Part shown: positions 9,582 through 61,597 of the stretch, one piece after another
Layout: each line of letters opens with the position of its first letter
How positions within the stretch are numbered: position 1 is the first letter of the stretch
Assembly: GCA_902763805.1 (NCBI GenBank)
Contig: CACWTN010000003.1
Location: forward strand, 1 to 64,000
DNA length: 64,000 bases
Direction: 5' to 3'
Source of the DNA: an uncultured bacterium
GTDB taxonomy: Bacteria > Cyanobacteriota > Vampirovibrionia > Gastranaerophilales > Gastranaerophilaceae
Position numbers and translations under genes: made by a program
The notes under the pieces: model-generated
The model's input: the letters and a program-made list of their open reading frames with translations, nothing else
Database searches by the model: none
What the model was told of the DNA's origin: nothing

Positions 9582-12227
9582 ATGATTAATTTTCTATTAA
9601 AGTTAATGGGTGATCCCAATGAGAAAAAAGTTAAGAAAATCATGGGGATTATTGAACATATAAACAAGCTTGAACCTGAGTTTGAAAAACTTTCAGACGA
9701 TGAACTTCGGGCAAAAACAGATGAGTTTAAGGCAATACTTGCAAAGCGTCCGACGTCGGATAATGTAAAAGCCGACAGAATACTTGAAAAAGAAGCTTTG
9801 GATAAAATTCTGCCCGAGGCTTTTGCCACTGTAAGAGAAGCCGGAAAACGTGTTTTAAACATGCGCCACTTTGATGTTCAGCTGATAGGCGGATATTTTC
9901 TTCATAACGGACATATAGCAGAGATGAGAACAGGTGAAGGTAAAACTCTGGTCGCAACTCTTGCGGCTTATCTTAATGCTCTTACGGGAAAGGGCGTTCA
10001 CGTTGTTACTGTAAACGATTATCTGGCAAAACGTGACAGCGAGTGGATGGGTAAGATTTATAAATTTTTAGGATTAAGCGTTGGTGTTATTTTATCAAAT
10101 CAACACGATGCAGAAGAATTCAACCGTAAGCGTGCGGCTTATGCGTGCGATATTACATACGGTACAAACAATGAATTCGGGTTTGATTATCTGCGTGATA
10201 ATATGGCGCCATCCAAGGAAAATCTTGTTCAGAGACCTTTTAATTATGCAATTATCGATGAAGTTGACAGTATTTTAATCGATGAAGCAAGAACCCCTCT
10301 GATTATCAGCGGCCGTGTGGAAAAATCAGCTGATACATATACTTTAATGGCTAAGGTTGCTCCTCAGCTTGAGAAGAATAAAGATTACGAAGTTGATGAA
10401 AAGAATAAGAACGTTATCTTTACCGAAGACGGTATCGACAGAGCGCAGGAAATTATCGGATGTAAGGATTTGTTTGATATAAATAACCAGTATGCTCACG
10501 ATTTGCTTAATGCCCTTAAGGCAAAAGAACTGTTTATCCGTGATACGGATTATGTGGTTAAAGAAGGCGAAGTTATTATTGTTGATGAGTTTACGGGACG
10601 TATGATGCCGGGAAGACGCTGGTCTGACGGTTTGCATCAGGCAATAGAAGCAAAAGAAGGGGTTGATATACAGGATGAAACCCAGACGCTTGCAAGTATT
10701 ACGTTCCAAAACCTGTTCAGACTTTATCCGAAACTTTCGGGTATGACAGGTACGGCTATGACTGAAGAAGCTGAATTCGGTAAAATTTATAACCTTGAGG
10801 TTACGGCTATTCCTACAAACAAGCCTGATATCAGAATAAATTATCCTGATGTAATTTATAAGAATGAACGTGCAAAATACAATGCCGTTGTTAACGATAT
10901 TGTTGAACAAAATAATCTCGGACGTCCTGTTCTTGTCGGTACGGTAAGTATTGAAAAATCAGAGTACATTTCCGCACTTCTCAAGAAAAGAGGGGTTAAA
11001 CATAACGTTTTGAACGCAAAACAGCATGAAAAAGAAGCTTATATAATTGCTCAGGCCGGTCGTGTCGGTGCGGTTACAATAGCTACAAATATGGCAGGCC
11101 GCGGTACTGATATCCTTTTAGGCGGTAATGCTGAATTTTTGGCAAAAGAAGAACTGGAGAAAAACCACATTACTCCTGCAACTCCGAATTATGAAAAACT
11201 AAAAGAAGATGCCCTTGCAAAAGCACGTCAGATTACGGAAGAAGAACATGCTAAAGTTGTTGAGCTGGGCGGTCTTCATGTAATCGGTACGGAAAGACAT
11301 GAATCAAGACGTATTGATAACCAGTTAAGAGGTCGTGCCGCACGTCAGGGCGACCCGGGGTCAACCAGATTTTTCTTGTCTTTGGAAGATAATTTGATGA
11401 GAATATTCGGCGGAGACAAAATTGCAGGACTGATGGCTATGCTTCAGGTTGACGAGAACATGGCGATTGAATCAAAACTTATTACCCGTCAAATTCAGTC
11501 TGCTCAGAAGAAGGTTGAAACTTATCACTTTGATATCCGTAAAAACGTACTTCAGTATGACGACGTTATGAATATTCAGAGAGAAAAATTCTATGCACAG
11601 AGAAGAAAAGTACTTCAGGGCAAGGATTTGAGAAGTGATATTGAGTATATGATAGACAAAGAGATTGACAGACTTTTGAAATCATATATCACGCCTGAGA
11701 TGGGAACAGAGGAATATATAAAAGAGGATTTGGATACCTTGATTAAGGAACTCCATTCTACAATTCCGCAGTTATCGTTTATTTCAGTTGAAGATATAAG
11801 AAACATTCGTTTTCACAAGATATACGATATGATAAGAGAGGCTGCGCAGAAAGCATATAAAGACCATGAAGAAGAAATAGTAAGTTTCTTTAATTCTATA
11901 TCAGCACAGTACGACCCGACATTTGTTCCTCAGGAGGTTTTTGGTCCTGATAACGTGATGCGTTCGCTGGAAAGAGATATTTTGCTCAGGGTTGTTGATA
12001 ATCAGTGGATAGATCATCTTCATAATATTGATATGCTTAAAGATGGTATAGGACTTCGAGCATACGGTCAGAAGGATCCTTTAATCGAATACAAAAAAGA
12101 AGCTTACGATTTGTTTAACAAGATGATGTATGAGATACAGTCAAATACAGTCAAATATTTGTTCCGTGCCAAGTTTGGCATCCAGTTTGTGTCGGATGAC
12201 GGCGGTGTTGAAGTTGTTGAACAATAA
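9582..12227 (+). CDS. secA: Preprotein translocase ATPase SecA
   Basis: An 881-residue ATP motor that pushes unfolded preproteins through SecYEG. Nucleotide-binding domain 1 holds Walker A (MRTGEGKT) and the DEAD-like [16 protein letters not shown]. The preprotein cross-linking domain follows (about residues 225-370), and domain 2 has [15 protein letters not shown] and the arginine-finger segment [11 protein letters not shown]. The helical wing/scaffold and IRA1 are intact. The protein stops after [13 protein letters not shown], so the C-terminal Cys-rich zinc/SecB-binding tail of many SecA proteins is missing. The SD is GGAGAGGTTAGG. It probably carries the exported pilins, the TpsB-like protein and signal-peptide proteins seen in this window. 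Confidence 0.98.
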
Positions 12228-12327: not shown

Positions 12328-12945
12328 ATGGCGTTGAATCCGTATACTTTGTATCATTTATATGAAAAGGGCATATTACCGTATGTTCCCGAGGATTTAA
12401 TGTCGGGAGTTCCTGTTGCGCCGATGGGTTCAATTTCGAATCCTTATCTTGAGCTTGCACAGCAGGGAGGTTTGTACCGGAACCACGGAATGCACAATGA
12501 TACATTTCAGATGAACGGCGGAGTTCATTCTCCATACTCAAATTCGTACACAAATCCTGTTTTGTCGCAGCCTCAAATCGGTTCAATGTCTCAGGCAGGC
12601 GGAATGAATACATTTAATGGTGTCGGGGTAGGAGCATATTCGCAGGCAGGCGGAATGAATGCATTTAACGGTGTGGGGATAGGAGCATATTCTCAGGCAG
12701 ATGCGGGAATGAATGCATATGGCGGTCTTTTTGGCGAAGCGGGAAACGGGATTAGCAACGGATACAGCAAGACGGTTTCTGTTATTAACAGAACTCCGAA
12801 GTTTGTTTTGGGATTAGCGGCTCTGCTGATAGGAGCTTTGGGTATAAAACATGCTTTCAGAGGCGGTAAAAAAGCTGCTCATAAATCAGGATTTTTGTCT
12901 AAACTTAATCCTCTGAATTGGAATTTGTTTAAGAAGAAAAGTTAA
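12328..12945 (+). CDS. Glycine-rich repeat protein with C-terminal membrane anchor
   Basis: A 205-residue protein of unknown function. Residues 1-85 are rich in P, G, N, Q and Y. Residues 88-133 hold two exact-length 17-residue repeats (SQAGGMNxFNGVGxGAY) and a third partial one. Residues about 160-180 (FVLGLAALLIGALGI) form one membrane segment, followed by a basic tail (GGKKAAHKSG, LFKKKS). With no N-terminal signal peptide it could be a tail-anchored protein with the repeats in the cytoplasm. The SD is AGAAGGTG. It stands between secA and a HAD gene and ends at a terminator. Confidence 0.75.
   Translation: MALNPYTLYHLYEKGILPYVPEDLMSGVPVAPMGSISNPYLELAQQGGLYRNHGMHNDTFQMNGGVHSPYSNSYTNPVLSQPQIGSMSQAGGMNTFNGVGVGAYSQAGGMNAFNGVGIGAYSQADAGMNAYGGLFGEAGNGISNGYSKTVSVINRTPKFVLGLAALLIGALGIKHAFRGGKKAAHKSGFLSKLNPLNWNLFKKKS
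12589..12726 (+). repeat. 51-bp in-frame tandem repeat, 2.7 copies
   Basis: Units at 12589-12639, 12640-12690 and a partial third at 12691-12726 encode 17-residue Gly/Asn-rich units. The first two differ at only a few bases, so the array is probably young and may vary in copy number between strains. Confidence 0.85.
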
Positions 12946-14010: not shown

Positions 14011-16047
14011 ATGAAAAATTTTATAAAATTTGCATCCGGTTTTACGATTGCGGAGATGGTAATTACTATGTTGATTACAATGTTGATTGCTGCCGCAATG
14101 GTTCCGGTTGTGGGTATGAAAAAGGTCAGATTTCCCAGAAATACCGTATCTCATGGTATAGCTGAGTGTTATTATGAACCTACTGGGTTTGATGATAACG
14201 GAGATGCTAAAGACTGGAAATTGACGTATTATCAGACAGATAGTTCTGGCCGAAATTCGGCAACTGGCGGGGTTGCACCAGGGGAAGATTATTGTACGTT
14301 TGTTCCGCCAAAAGCTGACTTTTTCGAAATAATTGTTGTAGGTGCAGGTGCCGGTTTAACGCCCGGTGCTGCAACTCAGCGGGACAATGTAAAGTTTGGA
14401 ATAGGCGATCCGACTGGTGGTGATGGCATACAGAGCGGATATATAAGAGTAGATGGAAATTTTCAGGCTGACATTCGAGATGCTCATCTGACTACCGATT
14501 CAGGGCGTCCGCAGTATATAGATGAACCTCTGAGGACAATACTTGATCAGTGGTCGACGGGTGTTAAACGCAATACACTTGTTGCAAAATATATATTTGA
14601 ATCCGGAGTCCAAAACGGAGGTAATGGTTTTTGTGTTTACAGACCGCGTCCGACAGACTATTGTGACTGTCTGAGCAGTACAAAAAAATGTGACGGTCCG
14701 ATAGATGGTCCTTTTTTCAACGAAACTTTAGGTCAGGCGGTAAACAAGAGTAATCAGCCTGATAAGTGCTGGTTTTTCCATCATGTTTCCGGTCTGAATA
14801 CCGGCTATGGCGGACGAACAACAGTTCCGTTGATATATGCCCTGAACCGTAATGTAGAAATTCAGGCTCCCAATAACTATTTGTATCATCCTATAACCGG
14901 TGAGATACGCGAGGTTAATAATTATCAAGAGCTTGAATTTTCAATCTCTGGTAACGGTGCTTCAAAATCCGTAAAAATACATCCTGCAACTGCTGCGACT
15001 TTGCTTGGCCATACTGACTGTCTATATGAGACAGATCATTGGGGAATTCCTAGTACTGTTGTGGATAATGATGTTTGTTTCGATACGCAAGTAAATGCCG
15101 GTTTATGGCATTATCCTGATGTCCGTCGTACAGATGCATCATGCGAAGGCAATTCCTGCTCTGCGCTCAATTTTACCAAAGATTCAAGAATGGGTTACGG
15201 TGCTGATATGGGTATAGAAAATGCTGGAGCCAAAAACTGTTCCATAAAGGAGGGCACCGGTGCCGTTACTGCACGAATTTATTATCCAAAACCCAACGAC
15301 CCTAATAATACTGACCCAAGGATGCTGAAGTGGGCTTATTCCGGTGTAGCAGGTGATTCAACGTCAGTTCTTGGCGGTGAATCAGGAAAACAGCGGAGTA
15401 TTATATATGAGCATCTGGATAAAAAATTATATCTCAAACCGGCGAAATATATGAAAGAGGCGGATGAAGGAAATATTACTTATGTATTGGAAGACCCTCA
15501 GGACATTACTACTTCTGTTATTAAGGCGAGTTCCGGAAAAATTTTCGGTAATGTCGGTAAGATGGTATTCGATATATTAAGTTCACAGCTGCCTATTCCC
15601 AAACAATCTTTAGAAAAGGCAAAAGTGGGTTATAAAGATTTGAATTATGTATCGAGAGTAAATGCTGCTAAGTACCAGGGCGGCCTTAAGGGGTGCGACA
15701 ATCCGGAGCATCCGTGGTGTCCGGGTTATGGCGGCAAGGGTACATATTTTTATCTGACGGATGTTCCGCAGATGAATGCGCTTACATTGAGAAATTTATA
15801 TTTTGATAACGCTTATTATACAATCACGATGCCCCAGCTTATATCAGAGCCGGCGGTTAGTATAAATAATCCTTTGTGCGACGATAATTATACGGAGCCG
15901 ACAGATGTAACATTGACCGTTGATGACGGTGATTTTCAGAAATTACCGCCAAAAGTTCTTAAGCAGTTTATGGATGATAATAGCTTAAAATATTGTAAAG
16001 AGCGTAAAGTTAAAGGCAGTCCGGGCGCTGTAATAATAATGTGGTAG
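14011..16047 (+). CDS. Large type IV prepilin-like protein with Gly-rich/Trp-ending domain
   Basis: A 678-residue protein. The type III signal is cleaved G10|F11 (SGFTIAEMVITML) with the conserved Glu at mature position 5, followed by a hydrophobic helix. After it come YYEC, then CTFVPPKADFFEIIVVGAGAG, many Cys (CVYRPRPTDYCDCLSSTKKC, SCEGNSC) and a C-terminus reading GSPGAVIIMW. These N- and C-terminal motifs are shared with the next two genes and resemble the two halves of glycine-rich tail-fibre-like domains, with a long insert between. A TTG start at 13975 is possible; ATG 14011 is chosen from the prepilin leader length. It would be exported by Sec, processed by a prepilin peptidase (not in this window) and built into a pilus or pseudopilus. 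It leads a five-gene run. Confidence 0.85.
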   Translation: MKNFIKFASGFTIAEMVITMLITMLIAAAMVPVVGMKKVRFPRNTVSHGIAECYYEPTGFDDNGDAKDWKLTYYQTDSSGRNSATGGVAPGEDYCTFVPPKADFFEIIVVGAGAGLTPGAATQRDNVKFGIGDPTGGDGIQSGYIRVDGNFQADIRDAHLTTDSGRPQYIDEPLRTILDQWSTGVKRNTLVAKYIFESGVQNGGNGFCVYRPRPTDYCDCLSSTKKCDGPIDGPFFNETLGQAVNKSNQPDKCWFFHHVSGLNTGYGGRTTVPLIYALNRNVEIQAPNNYLYHPITGEIREVNNYQELEFSISGNGASKSVKIHPATAATLLGHTDCLYETDHWGIPSTVVDNDVCFDTQVNAGLWHYPDVRRTDASCEGNSCSALNFTKDSRMGYGADMGIENAGAKNCSIKEGTGAVTARIYYPKPNDPNNTDPRMLKWAYSGVAGDSTSVLGGESGKQRSIIYEHLDKKLYLKPAKYMKEADEGNITYVLEDPQDITTSVIKASSGKIFGNVGKMVFDILSSQLPIPKQSLEKAKVGYKDLNYVSRVNAAKYQGGLKGCDNPEHPWCPGYGGKGTYFYLTDVPQMNALTLRNLYFDNAYYTITMPQLISEPAVSINNPLCDDNYTEPTDVTLTVDDGDFQKLPPKVLKQFMDDNSLKYCKERKVKGSPGAVIIMW

Positions 16048-16065
16048 TATAAAACGGCAGGAATT

Positions 16066-16599
16066 ATGATACAAAAAAACAACAATAAAAAATTTGGATT
16101 TTCTTTATTTGAAGCATTGGTTTCAATGCTTATAATGTCGTTGTTTTTTATTGCATCTTCCCGTGTAATTACACAGAAACGCCCGATAGAGATTCAAAAA
16201 AATCCGTATGGGTATTATGAATGTTATACAATAAATGGTGTTACAAAACAGCACCGGTCGGTGGCAGAGTCGGAAACTCCTGCTTCGGTGACAGATAAAT
16301 GCACTTTTGAACCTCCCGCAGGAGCGAACTTTGTAGCGGTGCATTTTTTCAGACATTCCACATACGGTACTGCGTATTATAATACAATGCAGATAATATT
16401 TAATGAGCCCGTAACGTTTCCGTCACCCGGGGCAGTTGAAGGCTCCGGTGTATTTCAGGGTCTGGAACCTATGACAAACGATGATGCGGTACAAACCTTT
16501 AAATACTATTTGAAAATTTCACATCCCTCCTGCTATGTAAATAAATATATTACGGAGGAAAATAAATTGCCTGAAGAGGCGTTAATTATGTCATGGTAA
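16066..16599 (+). CDS. Small type IV prepilin-like protein of the cluster
   Basis: A 177-residue protein with prepilin cleavage site G11|F12 (FGFSLFEALVSML) and Glu5, then a hydrophobic helix. The mature part has YYEC, then CTFEPPAGANFVAVHFF, and ends in LPEEALIMSW, so it matches the larger paralogues on both sides but has lost most of the glycine loops and the long insert. It lies 18 bases after the first prepilin gene with a GGCAGGA SD, and 22 bases before the third. It may be a minor pilin that assembles with the two large ones. Two Cys pairs could form disulfides outside the cell. Confidence 0.85.
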   Translation: MIQKNNNKKFGFSLFEALVSMLIMSLFFIASSRVITQKRPIEIQKNPYGYYECYTINGVTKQHRSVAESETPASVTDKCTFEPPAGANFVAVHFFRHSTYGTAYYNTMQIIFNEPVTFPSPGAVEGSGVFQGLEPMTNDDAVQTFKYYLKISHPSCYVNKYITEENKLPEEALIMSW

Positions 16600-16621
16600 A
16601 TAACAATTGGAGAGTGCATAT

Positions 16622-19600
16622 ATGAATCAGCAGCAAAAAAAAGGATTTTCACTTGTAGAGGTAATGATTTTATTTACCGTGCTTGCCGTGTTTTTGGCAG
16701 CATCGGTTCCTCTGATTACAAGGAAGAGCAACCCGATTCCCAATAAAATTACCCATGGTGTATACAGATGTATACGTACCAATAACGGTCTTATGGAAGA
16801 ACTTTATTCGGGAACAAGACGGGTGAAAGGTCCTGAATTTCCTGCGCAATGTTCATTTACCGTTCCCAGTGCCGCTTTATATCGTGTTGATTTGTATAGT
16901 GCAGGTGCAGGCGGTGTAAAAGCTGCTTTGCTGAGTTCACAGTTAGATGACATTCGTTCAGCTGTTTTTAATACAAACGGCACGTATACGGATTTTAAGG
17001 GTGCAATGAGCGGCAAGGGTGAAGACTCTATACTTATGAAATTGAAAGATAAAGAGATAAAAACCCTGCTGAAAGGAAGAGAAATTGTAAGATATTTTCA
17101 TTCGGGTAATGCGGGAGATGGCGGAGACGTTATAATGAACTACCGTGCTCCTGTAGACTCCGTTTGTAATGCTCAGTATTATGCACAGGGTTTTGCAGGG
17201 CAGCGCTTGCAAAAAGCAATGAACATGTTAAATCCAAATTCGAACGAGTATCAAGGTTCAAAATTACAAAAATTAGAAGGCGAATTAGCTACGAAGCAGG
17301 GAGAAGTTACTACAAAAAGTAACGAAGTAGATGGATATGATAGTAAACTAAAAGCATATAACGAAATAGAAACTAAAAAAAGTAAACCTTTAGCTAATTT
17401 GAAAAGTGCATACAATGTTTTTATGAGTGGATCACTTGTCTGTGATGAAAAATGCAAGTCTACTTACCGTAGTCTGGAGAGCGCAATAAATCTATCCGAG
17501 TTAAAGGATATGCTGCCGGGCTACAAGAGCGCGCTTGCTGATGCAATGACAAAATCGCTTGTAAGCAGAGCAACAAGTGCTCGGGATTCAAAATGGGAGT
17601 CTGACAAGAAAGCATATATAAATCAAAAGGGACAAGAAGCTTATAATGCTGCTAAAGAAGAAGGTAAATCAGATGAAGAAGCTAATAAAGCGAAATCTGA
17701 TGCAGAAAGTGCGGCAGAAGCAAATGCATCTAATGAGGTACAAAAAGATCCGGAAACAGACTTTTTCAAAACGGTAGTGTCTTATTGTGATACAACCTGT
17801 GTAAATAAATATAAAGAAAAAGGAGAAGATGGACTAAGAACGTATTTTCAAAAAGATACTTCCGAGCCCAGAAACAGCAGGGCAAAAGCTGTACGTATTG
17901 AGAAAGGAGCTCTGTCAACGGAGATTTCACTTTTAAAAAATATTTATAATATTGCCAGTCAAAAATATGATGAATACGAACAAGATAAGAAAAACGCCAT
18001 CGCTCCTTATACAATAGAAGAGCTGACTAGTAAATATAATGAAGCTTCAGCTGAACTAAAAACATTACAGGGTCAAGCAACCGAAAAACAAACAGAAGTT
18101 AATACACAAATAGGTGTGCTTCAGAAAGAAGTAGATAAGTATATGGATGAGTCTGAAACCCTTCAAACTAAGAATTTGATTACGTCGGGTATGTCAAAAG
18201 CAAGTGCATACATTCAGGACAGAGAATTTCATGGCGGTATTGATACTATTTGGGGTGGCGGAAGTTATGAATATTTCCCGACGGATACTTATATATACAA
18301 TTATCAGCAGAATGACCCGAGAAGGGCAAATCCTGCAGAAAAGGGAACTCTGAAAAATGAAAGATTAGATAAAACAATGATTGTATTTGACCTAAGTACA
18401 AATAAAAATAGCAATGTTACTGCCGGTGATGCTGCAAGACAGGTACGAAGTTTCTGTGAAGCTATGTATGTACGTCCGTATCAGAATGAATTCAGAAATA
18501 TTGCAAATCCGTCAGACTTCACCTCCAGTAAAGACCGTCAAGTGATCTCAAAAGGCGGAAAAGGCGGAAAAGGAAAATATGTAGTATTAAAATTCCCGCT
18601 GGTATTTGAGCCGATAACAGCATGGGGAACGAACAGAGAACCTGATTATACAAACAGAAAATATTTACAGGATATACAGCCTCCAACAAAAGAAGATATT
18701 CAAAACAATGTAACACCAAACGTTAAATCTTATTATCCCGTATACTGCAAAAAATTAGGTGCAGGTATATACACAGGTGATGCGGAAAATTGTATACCTG
18801 CTTATATCAATTATAAAGGTGAGGTTGACAATGCTTTGAATAACAGAGCTCCAAACAAAGGGAAAGATTTGATAATTAATTATGATGAAAGTCCGGCTAG
18901 TAAAGTATTAATGGAAAAATTTTTCAGAACAGGTCTTATACAAGGTAAAGAAGGATATACTGATTTTCATGACACGGCAGTAAGCCAGGACCGTATTGCA
19001 ACCGGAACAGAGGAAGAATCGAACGGAAAAACTTTCTCCTCGGGTGTAAATGAATACCCGTATCTTGCATGGCATATACCAAGATTTGACATAAGCGGTC
19101 CGAAGAACGGTTTTAATATTGCCCTTATGAAAACTGAACCGACTCCGGGTAAAAAAGCGTCTCTCGGTTTAAGAATATATGACGAAAGTGTTGTATATGG
19201 TTATTCAAAAGACTACGTAAACAATCATAATAAATATTCTAATAATAAATTGCATTATGACGGTACATACGATGATGTTAAAAATTACAACAGAGAACCG
19301 GGTAAACTGAACCTCAAAGAATCGATAACAGATGAAAATACCGGTGAAATCGCACGAACAGAAGCCGAAGCTATTGGTAAAAGTGCTTTCTGGCGTATGC
19401 ACGGGCACAGAATCTATACGGAATATACTTATAATAACAAAAACCTCGCTTATTACGGCGGTCCGTATAACTACAATCCTCTGCAGGGTCAAGACGCAAC
19501 ATTCTACGATACTTTGTATATCCAAAACTACTATGACCTTCCGTATCAAAAGGTAACGGTTTTGGCTGCTGATTATAAGAATACAGCTGTTGATCCGTTG

Positions 19601-20362
19601 TACAGAGATTATAAAATTACGCTTGATTCAGGTCTCTGGTCAAAGAGTTACAAACTCGGAAGAGCCGGAGAACCGGGTAATACCGAAAGCTTCTTTACAA
19701 CAAACCTTGGCTCGGAATGTACTTTCGTAGTACCAAAAGGCGGTCCTCAGTATGATATAAATAACCCAGAAAAGACTATTGCTGAGTTAGAGAAAGATTT
19801 GACGGTAAGTATAACCTGTACTAACAGAGACAAAACAAAAACTGTATTCTACAAGTTCCTTGATGGCGGAAAATACCGCCGTGACTACAAGATTGCCGAG
19901 CAAAAATTCAACTGGTTCAACGGTATTCAAAAAGTGGAAATACCTGGTGAAAATGGTACAAGAAAAGCATGGCAGCCGACATCTATGTGGGCAAAAGCAT
20001 TTTCTCACATGCGTGCTAATCCGAATGACGATTTGTATAACAGACATAATGTAGGTAAAGGCGGCGACGGCACCCATATTACTGATAAGTGTGTTGCACC
20101 GAAAGGCTACTACGGCAGAACATTATCAGAAATAGTTCAATTCCAGCCACAGGCTCCGCGATATCTTAACTTAATTACCCAAACAAATCAGTTATATTCC
20201 AGAAAGGTTTATCTGGACGGTGAAGAAGACGGAGTAAGCTGCTATGGTCCTGTCCAGGCAGGTAAAAACTACGTTGAGAATTATTCGATCTCCGAAGATG
20301 ATACAAGCGTAGAATATAATGCAGGAGAAGGCGGTCCGGGTGCTGTTGTAATTACCTGGTAA
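16622..20362 (+). CDS. Giant type IV prepilin-like protein with coiled-coil insert
   Basis: A 1246-residue protein, several times the length of normal pilins. The prepilin site is G8|F9 (KGFSLVEVMILFT) with Glu5. Then come VYRC, CSFTVPSAALYRVDLYSAGAGG and GNAGDGGDV glycine loops. Residues about 205-525 form a Lys/Glu/Ala-rich coiled-coil insert containing two similar CDxxC segments (VCDEKCKSTY and YCDTTCVNKY). A Tyr/Asn-rich region follows, with GGKGGKGKYVVLKF, and the protein ends in GEGGPGAVVITW. The open frame begins with TTG at 16607, but that TTG is part of the SD (TTGGAGAG) for ATG 16622. The insert has more A-rich codons than its flanks, suggesting later acquisition. A long surface filament tip or adhesin is my inference. 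Confidence 0.82.
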   Translation: MNQQQKKGFSLVEVMILFTVLAVFLAASVPLITRKSNPIPNKITHGVYRCIRTNNGLMEELYSGTRRVKGPEFPAQCSFTVPSAALYRVDLYSAGAGGVKAALLSSQLDDIRSAVFNTNGTYTDFKGAMSGKGEDSILMKLKDKEIKTLLKGREIVRYFHSGNAGDGGDVIMNYRAPVDSVCNAQYYAQGFAGQRLQKAMNMLNPNSNEYQGSKLQKLEGELATKQGEVTTKSNEVDGYDSKLKAYNEIETKKSKPLANLKSAYNVFMSGSLVCDEKCKSTYRSLESAINLSELKDMLPGYKSALADAMTKSLVSRATSARDSKWESDKKAYINQKGQEAYNAAKEEGKSDEEANKAKSDAESAAEANASNEVQKDPETDFFKTVVSYCDTTCVNKYKEKGEDGLRTYFQKDTSEPRNSRAKAVRIEKGALSTEISLLKNIYNIASQKYDEYEQDKKNAIAPYTIEELTSKYNEASAELKTLQGQATEKQTEVNTQIGVLQKEVDKYMDESETLQTKNLITSGMSKASAYIQDREFHGGIDTIWGGGSYEYFPTDTYIYNYQQNDPRRANPAEKGTLKNERLDKTMIVFDLSTNKNSNVTAGDAARQVRSFCEAMYVRPYQNEFRNIANPSDFTSSKDRQVISKGGKGGKGKYVVLKFPLVFEPITAWGTNREPDYTNRKYLQDIQPPTKEDIQNNVTPNVKSYYPVYCKKLGAGIYTGDAENCIPAYINYKGEVDNALNNRAPNKGKDLIINYDESPASKVLMEKFFRTGLIQGKEGYTDFHDTAVSQDRIATGTEEESNGKTFSSGVNEYPYLAWHIPRFDISGPKNGFNIALMKTEPTPGKKASLGLRIYDESVVYGYSKDYVNNHNKYSNNKLHYDGTYDDVKNYNREPGKLNLKESITDENTGEIARTEAEAIGKSAFWRMHGHRIYTEYTYNNKNLAYYGGPYNYNPLQGQDATFYDTLYIQNYYDLPYQKVTVLAADYKNTAVDPLYRDYKITLDSGLWSKSYKLGRAGEPGNTESFFTTNLGSECTFVVPKGGPQYDINNPEKTIAELEKDLTVSITCTNRDKTKTVFYKFLDGGKYRRDYKIAEQKFNWFNGIQKVEIPGENGTRKAWQPTSMWAKAFSHMRANPNDDLYNRHNVGKGGDGTHITDKCVAPKGYYGRTLSEIVQFQPQAPRYLNLITQTNQLYSRKVYLDGEEDGVSCYGPVQAGKNYVENYSISEDDTSVEYNAGEGGPGAVVITW

Positions 20363-20385
20363 AACTACGTTATTTCCGAACACAT

Positions 20386-20413
20386 GGAACGGGTATTTTC
20401 TGAAACCCGTTCC
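20386..20413 (+). other. Inverted repeat between third and fourth prepilin genes
   Basis: GGAACGGGT ... ACCCGTTCC forms a 9-bp stem with a short loop (TTTTCTGAA). No T-run follows, so it is an mRNA-stabilising or attenuating hairpin rather than a clear terminator. Confidence 0.55.
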
Positions 20414-20461
20414 GGCAAAAGCGAAGAAAATATTAAACTAAATAATGAGAAAGGATTATAT

Positions 20462-21148
20462 ATGAAGAAAAAATATGGTTTCACCATGGCAGAACTTCTT
20501 GTAACTATGGGAATTCTGGGTGTTATAGCTTTAATAGCGTTACCAGTACTTCAGGATGCACAGCCAAATAAAGAATTGGTTATGCTTAAAAAAGTTTATT
20601 ACAATACAAGCAGAATCGTAAGTGAACTTATAAATGACGATTATTTGTATCCTGAGAGTGATGAAGAAAACAAACAAGGCTTTGGAAACACCATAAGCAG
20701 AGAATATCTCGGATATACCTTCAAAGACGAGAAGAAATTCTGCGCTCTGTTTGCAAGCAAACTTAATCTCAAAGACGGGAGTAACCCCGTCGATGTATGC
20801 AAAGGCAGAAAAAGTTTAGATGCGGGCGGCAGTTTTACAACAACAGATGGTGTTATATGGAATATACCGGATGTTTTGTTCGGAGTTCCTGATTATGTAC
20901 AGATTTTTGTGGATGTAAACGGTACCGGCGGTGACAATTGTGCACCTGCAAGCCAACCGAATCCATACTGGAATGCAGATGACATGAAAGCCTGCGGTGC
21001 AGGGAAGAAACCGGATAGATTCTATGTTACGGTATACCGTAATGGCAGTCTTAACATTCCGAGTGAACTCGGCAGATTATACGTAACTTCTTCCAACACT
21101 AACAAAAGCTTTACACAGTTTATAAAAGAACATCCGACAGCTAAATAA
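20462..21148 (+). CDS. Type IV prepilin-like protein of the cluster (TypeII/IV pseudopilin form)
   Basis: A 228-residue protein. Start chosen at ATG 20462 behind GAGAAAGGA, although the frame is open from 20384. It has cleavage site G6|F7 (KKYGFTMAELLVTMG), Glu5 and a canonical hydrophobic helix ending in ALPVLQDA. The globular part has several Cys (FCAL, VCKG, NCAP, ACGA) and the segment DGVIWNIPDV, with FVDVNGTGGDNCAP resembling the calcium-binding/D-loop region of minor pilins of this lineage (DxNG). It lacks the C-terminal Trp motif of the three preceding genes. A 99-base gap after the giant prepilin includes an inverted repeat around 20386-20413 (ACGGGT...ACCCGT) that may act as an attenuator. 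Confidence 0.87.
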   Translation: MKKKYGFTMAELLVTMGILGVIALIALPVLQDAQPNKELVMLKKVYYNTSRIVSELINDDYLYPESDEENKQGFGNTISREYLGYTFKDEKKFCALFASKLNLKDGSNPVDVCKGRKSLDAGGSFTTTDGVIWNIPDVLFGVPDYVQIFVDVNGTGGDNCAPASQPNPYWNADDMKACGAGKKPDRFYVTVYRNGSLNIPSELGRLYVTSSNTNKSFTQFIKEHPTAK

Positions 21149-21162
21149 ACGAGGTTATTAGT

Positions 21163-22173
21163 ATGAATAAAAAAAATGCATTCACGCTTGCAGAATTATT
21201 AATCGTATTTACAATGATAGGTGTTTTGACTGTCGTGGCACTTAATACAATGAAAGGCTATGACAGAACTATAAGGTATTCTCACGCAAGTGTTTATCAC
21301 AACCTTGACAGAGCGTTTTTTAATGCAATGTTTTATTCAGATAACAAAAATCCGTTTACAAAAACCGATTATAACCCGGATGGTTCTTCATATGAAGTAT
21401 CTGCTCAGGAAGGCGCAAAAAGACTCTGCGATATGCTTGCATCGTACTTAAATGTTGCATCAAATACATGTTCAAGTAATGGTTTGGCGAATTTGAATGC
21501 CCCTGACGGAGCAGCTTTGGGGACTGTTCAGCTGACAACTCTTAACGGAGTGGAGTTATATATATCGGAAAGACAGGACAAGCAATATCCGTTTTTTATC
21601 ATTTATGCTGATATAAACGGCCCAAAACCTCCGAATACTCTGGATTATCAAGCACCGTCAGCTGCTAACGGACACAGAACAAAAGACCCTGACAGATTCG
21701 CCTTTGCAGCCTTGTCTATCGGCAGAATTTGTCCGCTTGGAGTTCCGGAAGTCGATCCGAAATTTATGACTGCAAGAATTGCGTATGTTTCTATTACCGG
21801 CGAACGCAGCAATAAGAAAAAGAATGCTGATGATGACAACGAAGAAACACCTTCAACGAAGTTTAGTACTAATTCAAAATCATACGTGCAAACAAAAGCT
21901 GAAGCCTGGGGGTATTATATAACTGATAATTTTACTAAAGATAAGGTGCCTATAGAGGATGAACCGACATCATACAATGATTTTATCAGAAGTGAGTTGC
22001 CGCAGGGTACGAAAATTTATAAAAGTGCTCTGGGTAATAATACAAAAAACGTAAGACTTACTGCTCCCAATGGTACTACACTCCAAAACGGAGCTGTTAA
22101 AGACGGCGGCTACGGCTGTAGTGCAAAATCAGCCGAAGAATGCTGGGTTATTGTTGATAAATATGCCTGGTAA
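21163..22173 (+). CDS. Type IV prepilin-like protein, last of the cluster
   Basis: A 336-residue protein. The prepilin site reads KKNA|FTLAELLIVF, i.e. Ala instead of Gly at -1, with Glu5 kept; some prepilin peptidases accept Ala there. The hydrophobic helix is followed by a globular domain with YADINGPKPPNTLDYQ (compare FVDVNGTGG in the gene before it) and DPDRFAFAALSIGR, and a C-terminus ending CWVIVDKYAW. The ending with Trp recalls the first three genes. A low-complexity acidic/lysine stretch (NKKKNADDDNEETPS) sits around residue 220. It is 14 bases after the previous gene, with SD GAGGTT. It converges with the 22198-23268 gene. Confidence 0.85.
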   Translation: MNKKNAFTLAELLIVFTMIGVLTVVALNTMKGYDRTIRYSHASVYHNLDRAFFNAMFYSDNKNPFTKTDYNPDGSSYEVSAQEGAKRLCDMLASYLNVASNTCSSNGLANLNAPDGAALGTVQLTTLNGVELYISERQDKQYPFFIIYADINGPKPPNTLDYQAPSAANGHRTKDPDRFAFAALSIGRICPLGVPEVDPKFMTARIAYVSITGERSNKKKNADDDNEETPSTKFSTNSKSYVQTKAEAWGYYITDNFTKDKVPIEDEPTSYNDFIRSELPQGTKIYKSALGNNTKNVRLTAPNGTTLQNGAVKDGGYGCSAKSAEECWVIVDKYAW

Positions 22174-22197: not shown

Positions 22198-23268
22198 TTA
22201 CAGTTTATCGTAATCTCTGAGTTCCGGCTTGTCGGGATTATATTCGCCGTAAAGCTTATTTCTCCATATTCTGCGCATATTTACAGGTTCGAATAATGAC
22301 TGGTCTTCAAAGTCAAGAGGCTGAATAATCTTAGTCGGATTATCTTCAATTTGTTTGATTTCTGTATATTCTGCCTGTTTTTTAAGTTTTTCTTCTTTTT
22401 GTTTTTTCTTTTCCTGCTTGCGCATATAGCGACGCTCTTTCGCCGAATCAATCTTATTACCCGTATTTGATTTAAATCTGTCGAAATCTTTGCTTCCTTC
22501 TTTGTTCCATCTTCTGTATTTTTTAGTGAAGACATTATCAAAGTTAGCCATATCATAGTATATTTTATATGATTCTTTTGCATACTCTGCATCCGTAAGC
22601 ACACTGATTTGAACATTTTGTGCAATCTCTGGGCACAGCATTCTTGAATAATCTCTTATCTTCTGTAGCTGTTCCGTTTGCGGAGAAGCTCCTCTTGTCA
22701 GTATTCTTGCCTCAACCGTGCTTATTGTTTTGTAAAAAGTATTTGACCATAAAACAGCGTTGGTTTTTGTATCAATCAAAACGGCATAAGTATTAATTTT
22801 ATATGCAGGGTCAATAACCGTTGCACCTGCAATATTCAAAAAATCCCACATAGTACGTCTTAAAACGTAATTTTCAGAGTCTAATGTTGACGTTAACAGT
22901 AAAACGTACTGCTGTTTATTTACACCTGCAACTTTCTTTAAAAGCGGGTAATCTACGTTATACGATGTTTTAAATTTATTCGTTAAATTTTTGGCAGGAA
23001 TCATATAAGAAGGATTGCTTTTCAGAAGTTTCCTCTCATCACTTACCGTTGGAGATATAATGTAATCTGTTTTATTGAGCAGATTAATAACTTCATTTGA
23101 GAAAAATTCAGCTGCTGCATCATAGATATAAGAATCTATTGCCAGACTTTCCGTAACAATATTGTCGGGTAATATAAGCACAGTTTTCTTTTGCACGTCT
23201 GCAGCCATTACGTGCGTTGTACAAACTAAAGCTATCCCAACTAAAAATACTTTAATTAAATCTCTCAC
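22198..23268 (-). CDS. Exported protein of unknown function with charged C-terminal region
   Basis: A 356-residue protein with a signal peptide (residues 1-23, hydrophobic core VFLVGIALVCTT, probable cleavage after VMA-A). The mature N-terminal half looks like an alpha/beta domain (KTVLILPDNIVTESLAIDSYIYDAAAEFFSNEVINLL; QYVLLLTSTLD; YAVLIDTKTNAVLWSNTFYKTI), of the general kind seen in CsgG/TolB-N-like periplasmic proteins. Residues about 235-300 are a Lys/Arg/Glu-rich coiled coil, followed by an acidic proline-containing tail. No lipobox is present. It is convergent with the prepilin cluster and may work at the same envelope site, but that is only a neighbourhood argument. Confidence 0.75.
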   Translation of the reverse strand: MRDLIKVFLVGIALVCTTHVMAADVQKKTVLILPDNIVTESLAIDSYIYDAAAEFFSNEVINLLNKTDYIISPTVSDERKLLKSNPSYMIPAKNLTNKFKTSYNVDYPLLKKVAGVNKQQYVLLLTSTLDSENYVLRRTMWDFLNIAGATVIDPAYKINTYAVLIDTKTNAVLWSNTFYKTISTVEARILTRGASPQTEQLQKIRDYSRMLCPEIAQNVQISVLTDAEYAKESYKIYYDMANFDNVFTKKYRRWNKEGSKDFDRFKSNTGNKIDSAKERRYMRKQEKKKQKEEKLKKQAEYTEIKQIEDNPTKIIQPLDFEDQSLFEPVNMRRIWRNKLYGEYNPDKPELRDYDKL

Positions 23269-38363: not shown

Positions 38364-38987
38364 ATGAAAAATAAAGAATACAGTATTGCAATGAACTGGA
38401 GTTACGTTGGAATCTCCGTTGTTGTCTTTTCATTATTAACTGTGTTGGTTTTGTATCTGCCGTCGATGAGAGAAATTGATTCAACAATTTTGCGCTCGGT
38501 AAGACTTGCACTTTCGCCATTTCCAAGCTATATTCCTGTGTTTGTTTGTGAGTTTGGAAGGGCAAATGCGTATTTGTGGCCTCAGATTACTGCGGCTTGC
38601 GTTCTTGTATCGCACAGAATGTACCTGAAAGCTTTTATGCTTATCTTGTTTGTTCAAATTGGATTTTTCTTGAAAGAATTGATAAAGAATTATGTATGCC
38701 GCCCGCGTCCTGAGGGAAGCGGTATTGCAAGTTTCAGTTTTCCGTCTGGACACAGTTGCTTTGCAATGTGTTTCTGCGGAATAATAATTTATCTTATACA
38801 TTGTTATGTAAGAAGTGATTTTTGGAGAAATCTTTTAATAATAGTATTCGGACTCTGGATATTTATGGTAGGTCTGTCAAGAATGTGGCTGGGAGCTCAT
38901 TTCCCGAGCGATGTTTTGGCAGGAATGTTCCTTGGGTTTTTCCTTGTTAATCTGTTTATTATTCTTGATAAATCAATTTCACGTTAA
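38364..38987 (+). CDS. PAP2-family membrane phosphatase
   Basis: A 207-residue membrane protein with five or six helices. The PAP2 catalytic motifs are all present: KxxxxxxRP as KNYVCRPRPEG, PSGH as SFPSGHS, and SRxxxxxHxxxD as SRMWLGAHFPSD. Such enzymes dephosphorylate lipid phosphates, e.g. undecaprenyl diphosphate (BacA-like role), phosphatidic acid or phosphatidylglycerol phosphate; with the lipid A and glycan genes nearby a C55-PP phosphatase role is plausible. The SD is GAAGGTGGAAGG. It converges with comEC, overlapping 4 bases. Confidence 0.85.
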   Translation: MKNKEYSIAMNWSYVGISVVVFSLLTVLVLYLPSMREIDSTILRSVRLALSPFPSYIPVFVCEFGRANAYLWPQITAACVLVSHRMYLKAFMLILFVQIGFFLKELIKNYVCRPRPEGSGIASFSFPSGHSCFAMCFCGIIIYLIHCYVRSDFWRNLLIIVFGLWIFMVGLSRMWLGAHFPSDVLAGMFLGFFLVNLFIILDKSISR

Positions 38988-41386
38988 TCTGTGTATTTTT
39001 TCTTCTTAGGATTATAAGTCAGAACTCTGTATTCTTTTGGGGTTACGGTTATCCTGACGGAGTTATGAATGTCTGTTCTTAAAACTTTTGATTTTCTAAG
39101 AGTTTCTGTTGTGTATATCGAAGGATGCCCGAATTTGTTCTCGCCTGTTGAGATTATTGAGTATTCAGGGTTAAGATAATCTGCTATTGATTTGTTGATA
39201 ACTCCCGGTGCACCGTGATGCGGAACTTTTAGAACAGTTATGTTTTGCGGCAGATTGTTTTTTAGCTTGTTGAATGTTTCAATACCTGCATCGCCTGTGA
39301 AAAGCATTGAAAATTTTCCGTAAGTAAGCAGAGTTATTATTGAACTTTCATTATCTTTACCGTTTTTGATTAAATAGTTTGTTATTTTAAGTTTGTTGTT
39401 ATATACAGACTGATTATTTTCTGCCTGAATAACATTTGTATTTCTCTGTTTTGCGGTTTTATAAATTTCCTGCGCCTGAGGGGAAGTATGGTCAAGCGAG
39501 TTTACGTAGAGTGTTTTTACATTTATTTCTTTTAATAAATCGACAGTTCCGCCGCAGTGGTCGTTATCAAAGTGCGTGACAATAAGCGTATCTAAATTGT
39601 TAATCCCTCTGTCGATAAAATATTTTATGATAAGTAATTTTGCCTGAGATTTCCCTCCGTTGTATCCTGCTTTTCCTGTATCAATCATCATATATTTGTT
39701 GTCAGGCGTTTTAATCATAAAAGCGTCGGCATTTCCAACATCAAAAGCCGTTATCTCAAGATTTTTGTTTGGGAGCGATATTGTAGATAATAAAAGTACG
39801 GAAACAAATACGGGCAAAGTTATTCTCATCAATTTGATATATTTATTTCTGAACTCTTTATTAAGAAAAAGGGTTAAGTTAATCAAAATTATGTAGTACA
39901 AAATAATCTGCAGAGGGTTAGGGTGGGTTGTCTGCACTGCAGAATGCGGGAGTGCGCCCCAAAAGTCAGATATATTGATAAGTAAAGATATCAGCGGGTT
40001 CAGTACAAAATCGAATGCCATACAAACAAAATCAGCAATCGGTTGTATTATTGACACAAGCGAACTTATGAAACCGCCGAAACTTATAACAAAAAGGATA
40101 GGAACGCTCATAATATTTGCAAAAACGGAATAAATGCTTATGTTGTTGAAATAAAATATCTGAATAGGAATAACCCAGAGCTGAGCAATTACGGGAACCG
40201 TAATTGAGCCGATAATCCAGTTTGCAAAGGGGTGCTCAGACCTGATTATGTACGGCATCATAAAAAGCAGACCGAATGTTACTACAAAGGAGAGCTGAAA
40301 TCCGACGTCATTAATATACATCGGGTTGTATATAAGCATAAGAAATGCGACAAACGAAAGAAGTGAAATATTGTTTGCATCACGGTCGATTAGCTTTCCT
40401 ATAAGTACAAAAATAAGCATTAATGCCGCTCTGACAACAGATGCTCCCAATCCTGTCATGAGAACGTATGTTAAAACAAGAAGTATGCAGATGCTTATAT
40501 TGAGTTTAAAAGGGATTTTAATGAAGTTCATTATTAAAAAGAAAAATGAGTAAATGAAACCGACATTCATACCTGAAGCTGCAAGTATGTGCAGTAAACC
40601 TGAGTTGATGAATGATTGTTTGATATTTTCAGGCGGAGAAACAGCATCGTCGCCAAACACAATTCCGCCCAGTATTTCCAGATTAGGACTTGCCAGATAA
40701 CGGGCGTGAATTTTCAAAATATTTTCTCTGTAGTTATTTATTTTTTGTAAACACTTTTCTGTTAAAGATTTTTCCGAAGGAATTTTTTCATAGCACGGAA
40801 TATTCAAATCTTTCATATTATAGGGATTTCTGCCGTAAAATACCGCATAGGTGTCAAAATTCCTGAGATAATTTCCGTAGTCAAACTGAGAAGGGTTTCC
40901 TGCTTTAAACGGGGTTGACAGCCTTCCCCGTATTTTATACGAATCATAAATGTTAAAGTTTTCTTTTTCGCTAATCGTAACAAGGACTTTTTCGTTTTCA
41001 GGCTCTTTTACTATTCCGTCATATTCAATTTTGTTAACACTAAAGAAAAACTGTGTTTTGTCGTTGTTTTTAGTCTGCGGTATAGACAAAATTTTGCCGT
41101 AAATAACAGAGTTAACTGGAGCTAAATTAAGCAGATTATCAGTATCTTTTATCCTGAGAGAAGTATTCAAAATTCCGAAATAAAAAATTAAAGTCCATAT
41201 CAGAATTATTTTGAAAGGAAATAGATTTTTTACAGCCGACAGGATTAAAAAACCTGTAAGTAAAAGTGCAAATAAAACCGAGTTATCACTTAATACTCCA
41301 AACAGTGCAAGTAAATAAATCCCTGTAGATACAAGCATTAATATGTTTTTGTTTTGTGTGACAGCCAAACAAATATCCTTGAACAT
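38984..41386 (-). CDS. comEC: ComEC/Rec2 DNA-uptake channel protein
   Basis: An 800-residue membrane protein forming the inner-membrane DNA channel of natural transformation. The N-terminal OB-like DUF4131 domain (residues about 60-200), the competence domain with ILAASGMNVGFIYSFFF and LTGLGASVVRAALM-like GASVVRAALMLIF, and the C-terminal metallo-beta-lactamase domain with THFDNDHCGG, FTGDAG and KVPHHGAPG are in order. Full length compared with the family. It suggests DNA uptake through the type IV pilus system, which fits the prepilin cluster. No SD is seen; TAAAAT ends 6 bases before the ATG, predicted leaderless. Confidence 0.93.
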   Translation of the reverse strand: MFKDICLAVTQNKNILMLVSTGIYLLALFGVLSDNSVLFALLLTGFLILSAVKNLFPFKIILIWTLIFYFGILNTSLRIKDTDNLLNLAPVNSVIYGKILSIPQTKNNDKTQFFFSVNKIEYDGIVKEPENEKVLVTISEKENFNIYDSYKIRGRLSTPFKAGNPSQFDYGNYLRNFDTYAVFYGRNPYNMKDLNIPCYEKIPSEKSLTEKCLQKINNYRENILKIHARYLASPNLEILGGIVFGDDAVSPPENIKQSFINSGLLHILAASGMNVGFIYSFFFLIMNFIKIPFKLNISICILLVLTYVLMTGLGASVVRAALMLIFVLIGKLIDRDANNISLLSFVAFLMLIYNPMYINDVGFQLSFVVTFGLLFMMPYIIRSEHPFANWIIGSITVPVIAQLWVIPIQIFYFNNISIYSVFANIMSVPILFVISFGGFISSLVSIIQPIADFVCMAFDFVLNPLISLLINISDFWGALPHSAVQTTHPNPLQIILYYIILINLTLFLNKEFRNKYIKLMRITLPVFVSVLLLSTISLPNKNLEITAFDVGNADAFMIKTPDNKYMMIDTGKAGYNGGKSQAKLLIIKYFIDRGINNLDTLIVTHFDNDHCGGTVDLLKEINVKTLYVNSLDHTSPQAQEIYKTAKQRNTNVIQAENNQSVYNNKLKITNYLIKNGKDNESSIITLLTYGKFSMLFTGDAGIETFNKLKNNLPQNITVLKVPHHGAPGVINKSIADYLNPEYSIISTGENKFGHPSIYTTETLRKSKVLRTDIHNSVRITVTPKEYRVLTYNPKKKKYTD

Positions 41387-59827: not shown

Positions 59828-61597
59828 ATGAAGAAACATTTAAGTTATTTAATTGCAGTTGTTTGTTTTCTATCAATGTCGCAGGCACAGGCAAATATCG
59901 CTACGGATATGGGAGGATATAATGCCGGTACATTCAATACGACACAGAATTTGAATACAAATTATCAGAAGATTGATAAAAGTTATGTTCAGTCATTAGA
60001 TGATGTTACTAAAGATGAACAAATCTACGACGCAACAGTAGAAGAAAATTATTCAAGAGAAGGTTCAATTTATAACCCTCACTTCCTTCTTGAAAAAATT
60101 AATTTTGAAGGAAATACGGTAAAAGATATTAAAGAATCCGATTTGCAGAATTTAGCTCTTGAAGTATTAGGTGAAGATATTTACTTTGATGAACTTCTTG
60201 AAGTTTGTTCAAAGGTTACAAATTTATACCGTTCAAAAGGTTATCTGACTTCATACGCAACAGTTCCGCCGCAAAGAATTGTAGACGGTGTTGCAACAAT
60301 TAAAATCGTTGAAAGTAAAGTCGGCGATATGAATATTGAAGGCGAAAAATGGACCCGTGAATGGTACTTAAAACATATAATTATGGGTAAAGCAGGGCTT
60401 AGACAAGGTGATGTATTTAATGCTAAAAACCTTCAGAGAGCAATGAAAGAAATTAACAGTGAAGATTATGTTCAGGTACAGACTGAAATTGAAAGAGAAA
60501 AAACAGGCGATGAAAATACGCAAATCACTCTTAATGTACGTGACAGATTCCCTGTTAATGCAAATGTGATTTACGATGATTACGGTCGTTCATATACAGG
60601 TGCACAAAGAGTTTCATTCCTTCTTGGTATGCACAACCTTACAGGTTTGGGTGACAAGATTTACGGCGGAACTGCTATATCATCAGGTTCAACTGGCTGG
60701 ATGGCAGGATACAGCTTGCCGGTTTCTTCATACGGAACCCGTTTGTCATTTGATTTTAACGATTCACACGTCAGATTAGGCGGTCCTTACAAAGGAATGG
60801 GTGTTAAAGGTAACGCACAAAGTTACTTCTTTAAATTAACTCAGCCGTTAGTACAGACAGCTAAATCTGATTTGTTCTTCTATACAGGATATGATTTGGT
60901 AAGAGCAAACACTACAATGGCAGCTCTCGGACCTGGTGTTAATAATGATATTGCTGACTATACTTTGCATGTATGGCGTTCAGGTTTGTACGGTATGACT
61001 GATGACAGCTACGGACGTTGGATTGGTAACTTGGGCATTGACTTCGGTATGGGCGGAAACAGCCATGTAAACGCTTCAAACAGTGATACATCATTCTTTA
61101 AAATTTCAGGTGGTGCAACACGTGTTCAAAGACTTACCGCAAGAACAATGGGTATAGTTAGAGCAAACGCTATGTATTCACCGAACAAATTGTTCGCAGC
61201 AGAACAATTCCAGATAGGCGGTCCTTATACATTGAGAGGTTATCAACCTGCTGAACTTATCGGTGACTATGGTGTAAGCGGTACTGTTGAATACAGATTC
61301 CCATTCCCGTTCCTGAATCACCTGTCACAAAAACTTGATGAAAGAGTTCGCTTGGCAGTATTCTATGACTTCGGTTTAATCGGTGAAAACGGACACGTTT
61401 ATAACTATCCGCACGAATTTTTACAGTCAGTTGGCTGCGGTGCTTACTTGTCATTCACCGACTGGTTAACAGCACAGGTTGGTGTCGGCTTCCCTCTCGG
61501 CAAGAAATATTATAATGAAAGTACTGCAAGATTCTACTTCAGCGTAAACGGCGATTTAGACAGATTAATTCCGCTGAGAAATCCGCAGAAAATATAA
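59828..61597 (+). CDS. TpsB/ShlB-FhaC-like outer-membrane protein (POTRA + beta-barrel)
   Basis: A 589-residue exported protein with a signal peptide (residues 1-23, SYLIAVVCFLSMSQAQA). A POTRA-like segment (FEGNTVKDIKESDLQNLALEVLGEDIYFDELLEVCSKVTNLYRSKGYLTSYATVPPQ) is followed by a second (VKDMNIEG...YVQVQTEIER) and a C-terminal barrel of about 16 strands, with GGPYTLRGYQPAEL (the RGY motif of FhaC/TpsB loop 6) and VEYRFPFP. These proteins usually export a large TpsA adhesin. No TpsA gene is in this window, so the substrate could be elsewhere. Ends at a strong terminator. Confidence 0.85.
   Translation: MKKHLSYLIAVVCFLSMSQAQANIATDMGGYNAGTFNTTQNLNTNYQKIDKSYVQSLDDVTKDEQIYDATVEENYSREGSIYNPHFLLEKINFEGNTVKDIKESDLQNLALEVLGEDIYFDELLEVCSKVTNLYRSKGYLTSYATVPPQRIVDGVATIKIVESKVGDMNIEGEKWTREWYLKHIIMGKAGLRQGDVFNAKNLQRAMKEINSEDYVQVQTEIEREKTGDENTQITLNVRDRFPVNANVIYDDYGRSYTGAQRVSFLLGMHNLTGLGDKIYGGTAISSGSTGWMAGYSLPVSSYGTRLSFDFNDSHVRLGGPYKGMGVKGNAQSYFFKLTQPLVQTAKSDLFFYTGYDLVRANTTMAALGPGVNNDIADYTLHVWRSGLYGMTDDSYGRWIGNLGIDFGMGGNSHVNASNSDTSFFKISGGATRVQRLTARTMGIVRANAMYSPNKLFAAEQFQIGGPYTLRGYQPAELIGDYGVSGTVEYRFPFPFLNHLSQKLDERVRLAVFYDFGLIGENGHVYNYPHEFLQSVGCGAYLSFTDWLTAQVGVGFPLGKKYYNESTARFYFSVNGDLDRLIPLRNPQKI

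Follow-up and report, generated by a model that had tools for sequence, protein, structure and literature searches.

A five-gene prepilin cluster that may encode a variable, glycine-rich type IV pilus tip in Gastranaerophilales

Introduction

The Gastranaerophilales, a non-photosynthetic order of Cyanobacteriota, are common in the gut and for the most part uncultured. How they attach is unexplored, and in the literature that we found on them type IV pili appear only as gene lists. A 64,000-nucleotide stretch of DNA from an uncultured member of this order, hereafter the window, carries five consecutive prepilin genes (A to E), one of which encodes a protein of 1246 residues. What are such large prepilins for, and which machine handles them? 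The reading that we prefer, with a probability of about 0.6, is that a retractable type IV pilus has A, B and C as minor pilins, which make up a glycine-rich, variable adhesin tip, possibly as a heterotrimer.

Results

Five prepilin genes and their conserved motifs

The sequence-only reading had described five consecutive prepilin genes, and we recovered five plus-strand open reading frames that each begin with a class III signal, G/A-F-(T/S)-x-x-E, and a hydrophobic helix (SGFTIAE in A, FGFSLFE in B, KGFSLVE in C, YGFTMAE in D and NAFTLAE in E). The genes are as follows:

14011-16047, plus strand: A, prepilin with a predicted TNF-like/glycine-rich head, 678 aa, C-terminus GSPGAVIIMW
16066-16599, plus strand: B, the smallest of the trio, 177 aa, C-terminus LPEEALIMSW, N_methyl match at the cut-off
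16622-20362, plus strand: C, giant prepilin, 1246 aa counted from the ATG (automatic ORF calling placed the start upstream, at a TTG at 16607), C-terminus GGPGAVVITW
20462-21148, plus strand: D, ordinary-sized prepilin, 228 aa, N_methyl E 1.1e-6 and IV_pilin_GFxxxE above cut-off, also placed by synteny
21163-22173, plus strand: E, prepilin, 336 aa, N_methyl above cut-off, also placed by synteny

The N_methyl cut-off (PF07963) was reached by B, D and E in a search of the proteins and by B, C, D and E in a search of the genome, while A scored 17.4 bits against a cut-off of 21.2. The host genome (1.96 Mb in 20 contigs, 99.7% complete) gave one further N_methyl gene besides the cluster in that genome search. 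Outside the N_methyl helix, A to E gave no meaningful Pfam or NCBIfam match. Between SecA and the cluster lies a gene for a 205-aa protein with no family match (12328-12945, plus strand), within which is a 51-nt tandem repeat (12589-12690), and a gene convergent with the cluster encodes a 356-aa protein of no known family (22198-23268, minus strand).

The C-termini of A, B and C read as previously claimed, and the proposed C(T/S)F-x-P/V-P motif is present in all three. A shared YxC motif had also been proposed, with YYEC in A; A instead reads HG-IAEC-YYE, and the common motif is corrected to [HY]G-x(2-3)-C. Among 24 orthologues of A, 23 of B and 25 of C, four residues never change: the prepilin Glu, the cysteine of this motif, the later cysteine and the terminal Trp. 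With both cysteines and the tryptophan invariant in all three proteins, the pattern goes beyond chance.

An ancient trio that recurs in other genera

The cluster occurs in about 24 of the 65 genomes of the genus, a count that includes one genome (G072) in which only A is visible, at a contig end. The same five-gene order was looked for in other Gastranaerophilales and was found in other genomes of the genus, where A-B-C-(D)-E is usual wherever contigs permit and where, in most genomes, the end of A runs a few bases into B, in an operon-like manner. With a C profile as query, the trio also turned up in many further genera of the family. There the A-B-C order stood, and D and E were mostly, not always, near; at the sister-genus loci that we fetched, A-B-C recurred with D and E usually nearby and E often on the opposite strand. 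Sister-genus B proteins are larger than those of the window genus (298-371 aa) and end in GAVLIVW-like motifs, and A, B and C of these genera all end in G-x-x-GAVxIxW-like motifs. When genome contigs were scanned, window A retrieved no relative, and the C alignment retrieved one named relative only, a Candidatus Gastranaerophilales MAG. Extra A-C pairs that lack B, D and E are found in two genomes (G075 and G084; loci L082 and L084), both of which also have a complete cluster.

In a tree of the N-terminal domain all B proteins form one group (SH-aLRT 96) and all C proteins another (99), and the A proteins nearly do so. Because the proteins group by paralogue across genera, the trio is older than these genera; judged from sequence, A, B and C are three ancient paralogues that form separate orthologous groups.

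Predicted fold of the heads

AlphaFold modelled window A with medium confidence (pLDDT 69.4) and a 619-aa C orthologue (locus L077) with a pLDDT of 80.8. In the C-orthologue model a helix (residues 12-33) and a linker precede strands that align, from residue 46 onwards, to the tail-tip and LTK domains. The best VIA-align match of both models was the Bxb1 tail tip (PDB 9d93): 9d93_Qa for the C orthologue (Z 8.8, 162 residues, rmsd 4.6), followed by LTK (7nx0_C, Z 6.2) and nothing further above 3.6, and 9d93_Pa for A (Z 7.7, 145 residues, rmsd 4.1), with TNF-alpha next (Z 3.6). VIA Z values of 7.7-8.8 are near the level of unrelated folds, though a wide gap separates them from the next unrelated rows (≤3.6). 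Both Bxb1 alignments run from residue 45-46 to the last Trp (45-678 in the A model). Foldseek returned no match at E ≤ 0.001 for either model, and a PDB sequence search with the A and C profiles retrieved pilin N-termini only.

By sequence, sister-genus relatives match Gly_rich_2 (PF21722), some of them above the cut-off (best E 1.9e-11), and also match PHROG tail families; PF21722 matches occur at trio loci themselves as well, for example in the B genes of G126 and G142. PF21722 returned no row for window A, B or C or for any of 25 C orthologues. Polyglycine-II lattice adhesins (S16 gp38, ALK/LTK) are marked by packed polyglycine helices; the window proteins contain only 5-10% Gly. When the helix was left out, hhalign aligned window-genus A end to end with the sister-genus trio (E 4.7e-26), and B and C also matched that trio (E 5e-14 and 1e-13, respectively). 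A, B and C are mutually homologous over the HG-x-C ... CxF-x-P segment (probability 96-97), and at the C-terminal motif the case for homology is convincing for the A-C pair but weak for B, which in the window genus has lost most of the glycine-rich part. Given the PF21722 and PHROG matches of the relatives together with the hhalign links, the window trio therefore represents diverged glycine-rich domains. The idea of pilin N-termini fused to PF21722-type domains thus holds in its main part, through relatives that reach PF21722 and the hhalign links of the window genus to them.

A shared TNF-like/glycine-rich fold of the trio is supported by structure prediction and profiles. The sequence-only reading had staked the fusion on such a common domain, and for A and C it stands up: in the models of window A and of the C orthologue, a single TNF-like sandwich contains both the opening strands and the strand with the final Trp. 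B joins them by profiles, which bear out a common N-terminal half and give little weight to its C-terminal motif. As in modular pilins, the extra domain of A to C is not specific to pilus biology.

The likeness to PF21722 lies in an F-x-x-P ... GAGG start and a G-x-GAVIIxW end, with sister-genus relatives above the cut-off, whereas the window proteins fall under the model and have lost many glycines. The Bxb1 tail tip, Pam3 gp24 and S16 gp38 resemble the trio in a TNF-like fold and/or a Gly-rich stem with variable distal loops. Gp24 of phage Pam3 is a chaperone-folded homotrimer with a conserved Gly stem that bears a hypervariable, putatively receptor-binding end (PMC9608196); the trio, in contrast, consists of three different bacterial pilins, and no chaperone gene was identified for it. 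The TNF-like/glycine-rich domain of ALK/LTK (PDB 7nx0), second-best match of the C-orthologue model, belongs to an animal receptor, and no descent is claimed. A phage origin recognisable by sequence was considered and set aside: a C orthologue had no tblastn match in 50,697 phage records, and the PHROG matches of window A to C are weak and fall on families of unknown function.

Variable loops on a glycine scaffold

Very long inserts between two halves of the head had been proposed. At least C is better described as one domain with several hypervariable loops between conserved Gly motifs than as two halves with a single insert. Glycine accounts for 28 of 67 strongly conserved positions in C, and Gly motifs separate loops of widely varying length; the most variable segment between anchors spans 106-562 residues (477 in window C). 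Median identity over 78 cluster pairs was 33% for A, 40% for B, 34% for C, 47% for D and 45% for E. Of the five proteins, A and C change fastest: A was less conserved than B in 77 of the 78 pairs and C less than B in 71, and both were less conserved than E in every pair.

Two genomes (G019 and G085) have SecA DNA that is 97.4% identical, yet their A proteins are only 40% and their C proteins only 36% identical. A 4.3-kb neighbour of the cluster (L054:11356-15680 and L077:91-4407) is 96.8% identical between them; it lies in opposite orientation relative to the cluster and has diverged inverted repeats at its borders. Given this inversion, exchange or rearrangement would explain the divergence no less plausibly than fast mutation. 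Two complete clusters lie head to head on contig 6 of G084, where a perfect 291-nt inverted repeat (L080:9342-9632 and 9956-10246), its copies 323 nt apart, spans the upstream region and the first 113 nt of both A genes; whole A is 42% identical between the two cluster copies. An inversion or recombination switch is possible at this locus. No inverted repeat for phase inversion was found in the window.

The loops vary strongly between species and so would probably give a retractable pilus an adhesive tip that can change. Phages often use pili as receptors, and large loops that diverge greatly between close relatives could instead be decoys, or variation of the pilus surface by which phages are escaped, rather than binding sites. 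We consider this improbable: the Gly scaffold beneath the loops is the ligand-binding one of phage tips and ALK/LTK (PMC9608196), and other lineages have, in its place, pilins bearing other adhesin-type domains.

The pilus machine

The statement that no pilus motor lies in the window was confirmed among the roughly 29 larger window proteins scanned. Elsewhere in the host genome, a PilB-like ATPase with an MshEN domain, a PilC/GspF platform and a secretin are encoded together on one contig (C13), a prepilin peptidase on another (C8:79731), and two ATPases exceed the curated PilT/PilU cut-off. This is the only such machine in the genome. The ATPase family is present in every genus-mate searched, whether or not it has the trio, and because genus-mates without the trio retain the same pilus machine, the trio is not essential for it. 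The PilC/PilY1 propeller (PF05567) had no match in 63 genomes, in a search whose control was equally silent. A gene for a ShlB/FhaC-type outer membrane transporter with POTRA domains (59828-61597, plus strand) suggests a two-partner secretion system.

For the secretin and the platform the best-scoring models are GspD and GspF, ahead of the type IV pilus models, all under curated cut-offs, and the assembly ATPase scores between PilB and GspE. With a single machine in the genome, A to E could thus be pseudopilins of a type II secretion system, in which A to C recognise substrates that the same machine exports. However, two PilT-family retraction ATPases pass the curated cut-off, and large, fast-changing loops suit surface exposure better than a periplasmic pseudopilus; this reading seems unlikely to us.

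A DNA-uptake pilus, in which the trio would bind DNA and act with ComEC, has in its favour PilT and a ComEC-like gene with a metallo-beta-lactamase domain in the window (38984-41386, minus strand). DNA binding gives no reason for heads so large and variable, however; A and C are less conserved than D and E of the same operon, and no competence pilin model was passed. We consider a competence role very unlikely.

Alternative tips in genus-mates

Genus-mates without the trio mostly have prepilins with YadA-head repeats and a Peptidase_S74 chaperone. These proteins have 486-692 aa and a C-terminal coiled coil, and a genome can have up to nine S74 matches. Examples are:

L093:235-1917, minus strand: S74-type prepilin
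L089:6134-7963, plus strand: S74-type prepilin
L094:5582-7660, minus strand: S74-type prepilin
L087:6876-8336, minus strand: S74-type prepilin

We take S74 to be IPR030392. Pilins with IPR030392 are a frequent modular architecture (PMC8179133). The trio occurs in 24 and S74-type pilins in 36 of the 65 genomes, with an overlap of one (Fisher p 4e-11 on raw counts). On the SecA tree, the comparison comes down to 3-5 phylogenetically independent pairs, which rules out mutual exclusion as a statistically shown result; exclusion between the two is suggestive only.

Discussion

The prepilin signals, synteny, paralogy and machine genes are the observations on which we build the adhesin-tip reading. 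A, B and C would be processed by the prepilin peptidase (C8:79731) and assembled with D and E by the PilB-like ATPase, PilC-like platform and secretin on C13. In place of a usual pilin head, their globular part would be a TNF-like beta-sandwich with strands that run on into glycine-rich loops, like that of phage tail-tip proteins and the ALK/LTK receptors. They would sit at the pilus tip, because heads of this bulk would hardly fit into the shaft; A and C would then bind a surface with their variable loop ends, and retraction by PilT would draw the cell towards it. That three paralogues are kept side by side points to a heteromeric tip, perhaps a trimer, with one copy of each. TNF-like domains commonly trimerise, which together with the retention of all three paralogues makes a heterotrimer attractive, although the extra A-C pairs without B (G075 and G084) weaken a strict 1:1:1 trimer.

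A bolder form of the model may be entertained, though we regard it as doubtful. At the tip of the retractable pilus, A, B and C would join into an obligate heterotrimer, a TNF/C1q-like head that has glycine-rich arms. The bacterium would thus have a receptor-binding organelle on the plan of a phage tail tip, with the core pilin head replaced outright, and lineages would diversify it or swap it for pilins with trimeric-adhesin (YadA-head/S74) ends.

The trio belongs among the modular pilins and is no new kind of system. The closest comparison is with PilB and PilC of Streptococcus sanguinis, which are modular tip pilins (PMC8179133, PMC10191384). Like these, A to C are minor pilins of large size in which an adhesive-type module follows the prepilin N-terminus; their genes lie with those of other minor pilins, and the proteins are expected at the tip. 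PilB and PilC carry a vWA or lectin module on a short loop of a small, complete pilin module, whereas in the C-orthologue model the helix and a short linker lead directly into the TNF-like/Gly-rich domain, and the head domain is common to three paralogues. Small sets of minor pilins also form the filament tip in the GspI-J-K and PilHIJK complexes and the CofB trimer (PMC10191384), but none of A to E passed the curated models of those pilins; with curated minor pilin models, A to E gave weak N-terminal matches only.

If this reading is true, it would name a likely tip adhesin of Gastranaerophilales and provide an example of a pilin with a receptor-type, phage-tail-like glycine-rich domain as its globular part. 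The cluster would then provide a test case for a hypervariable binding surface on a conserved scaffold that is pulled by a retracting pilus, and for lineages that swap whole tip types.
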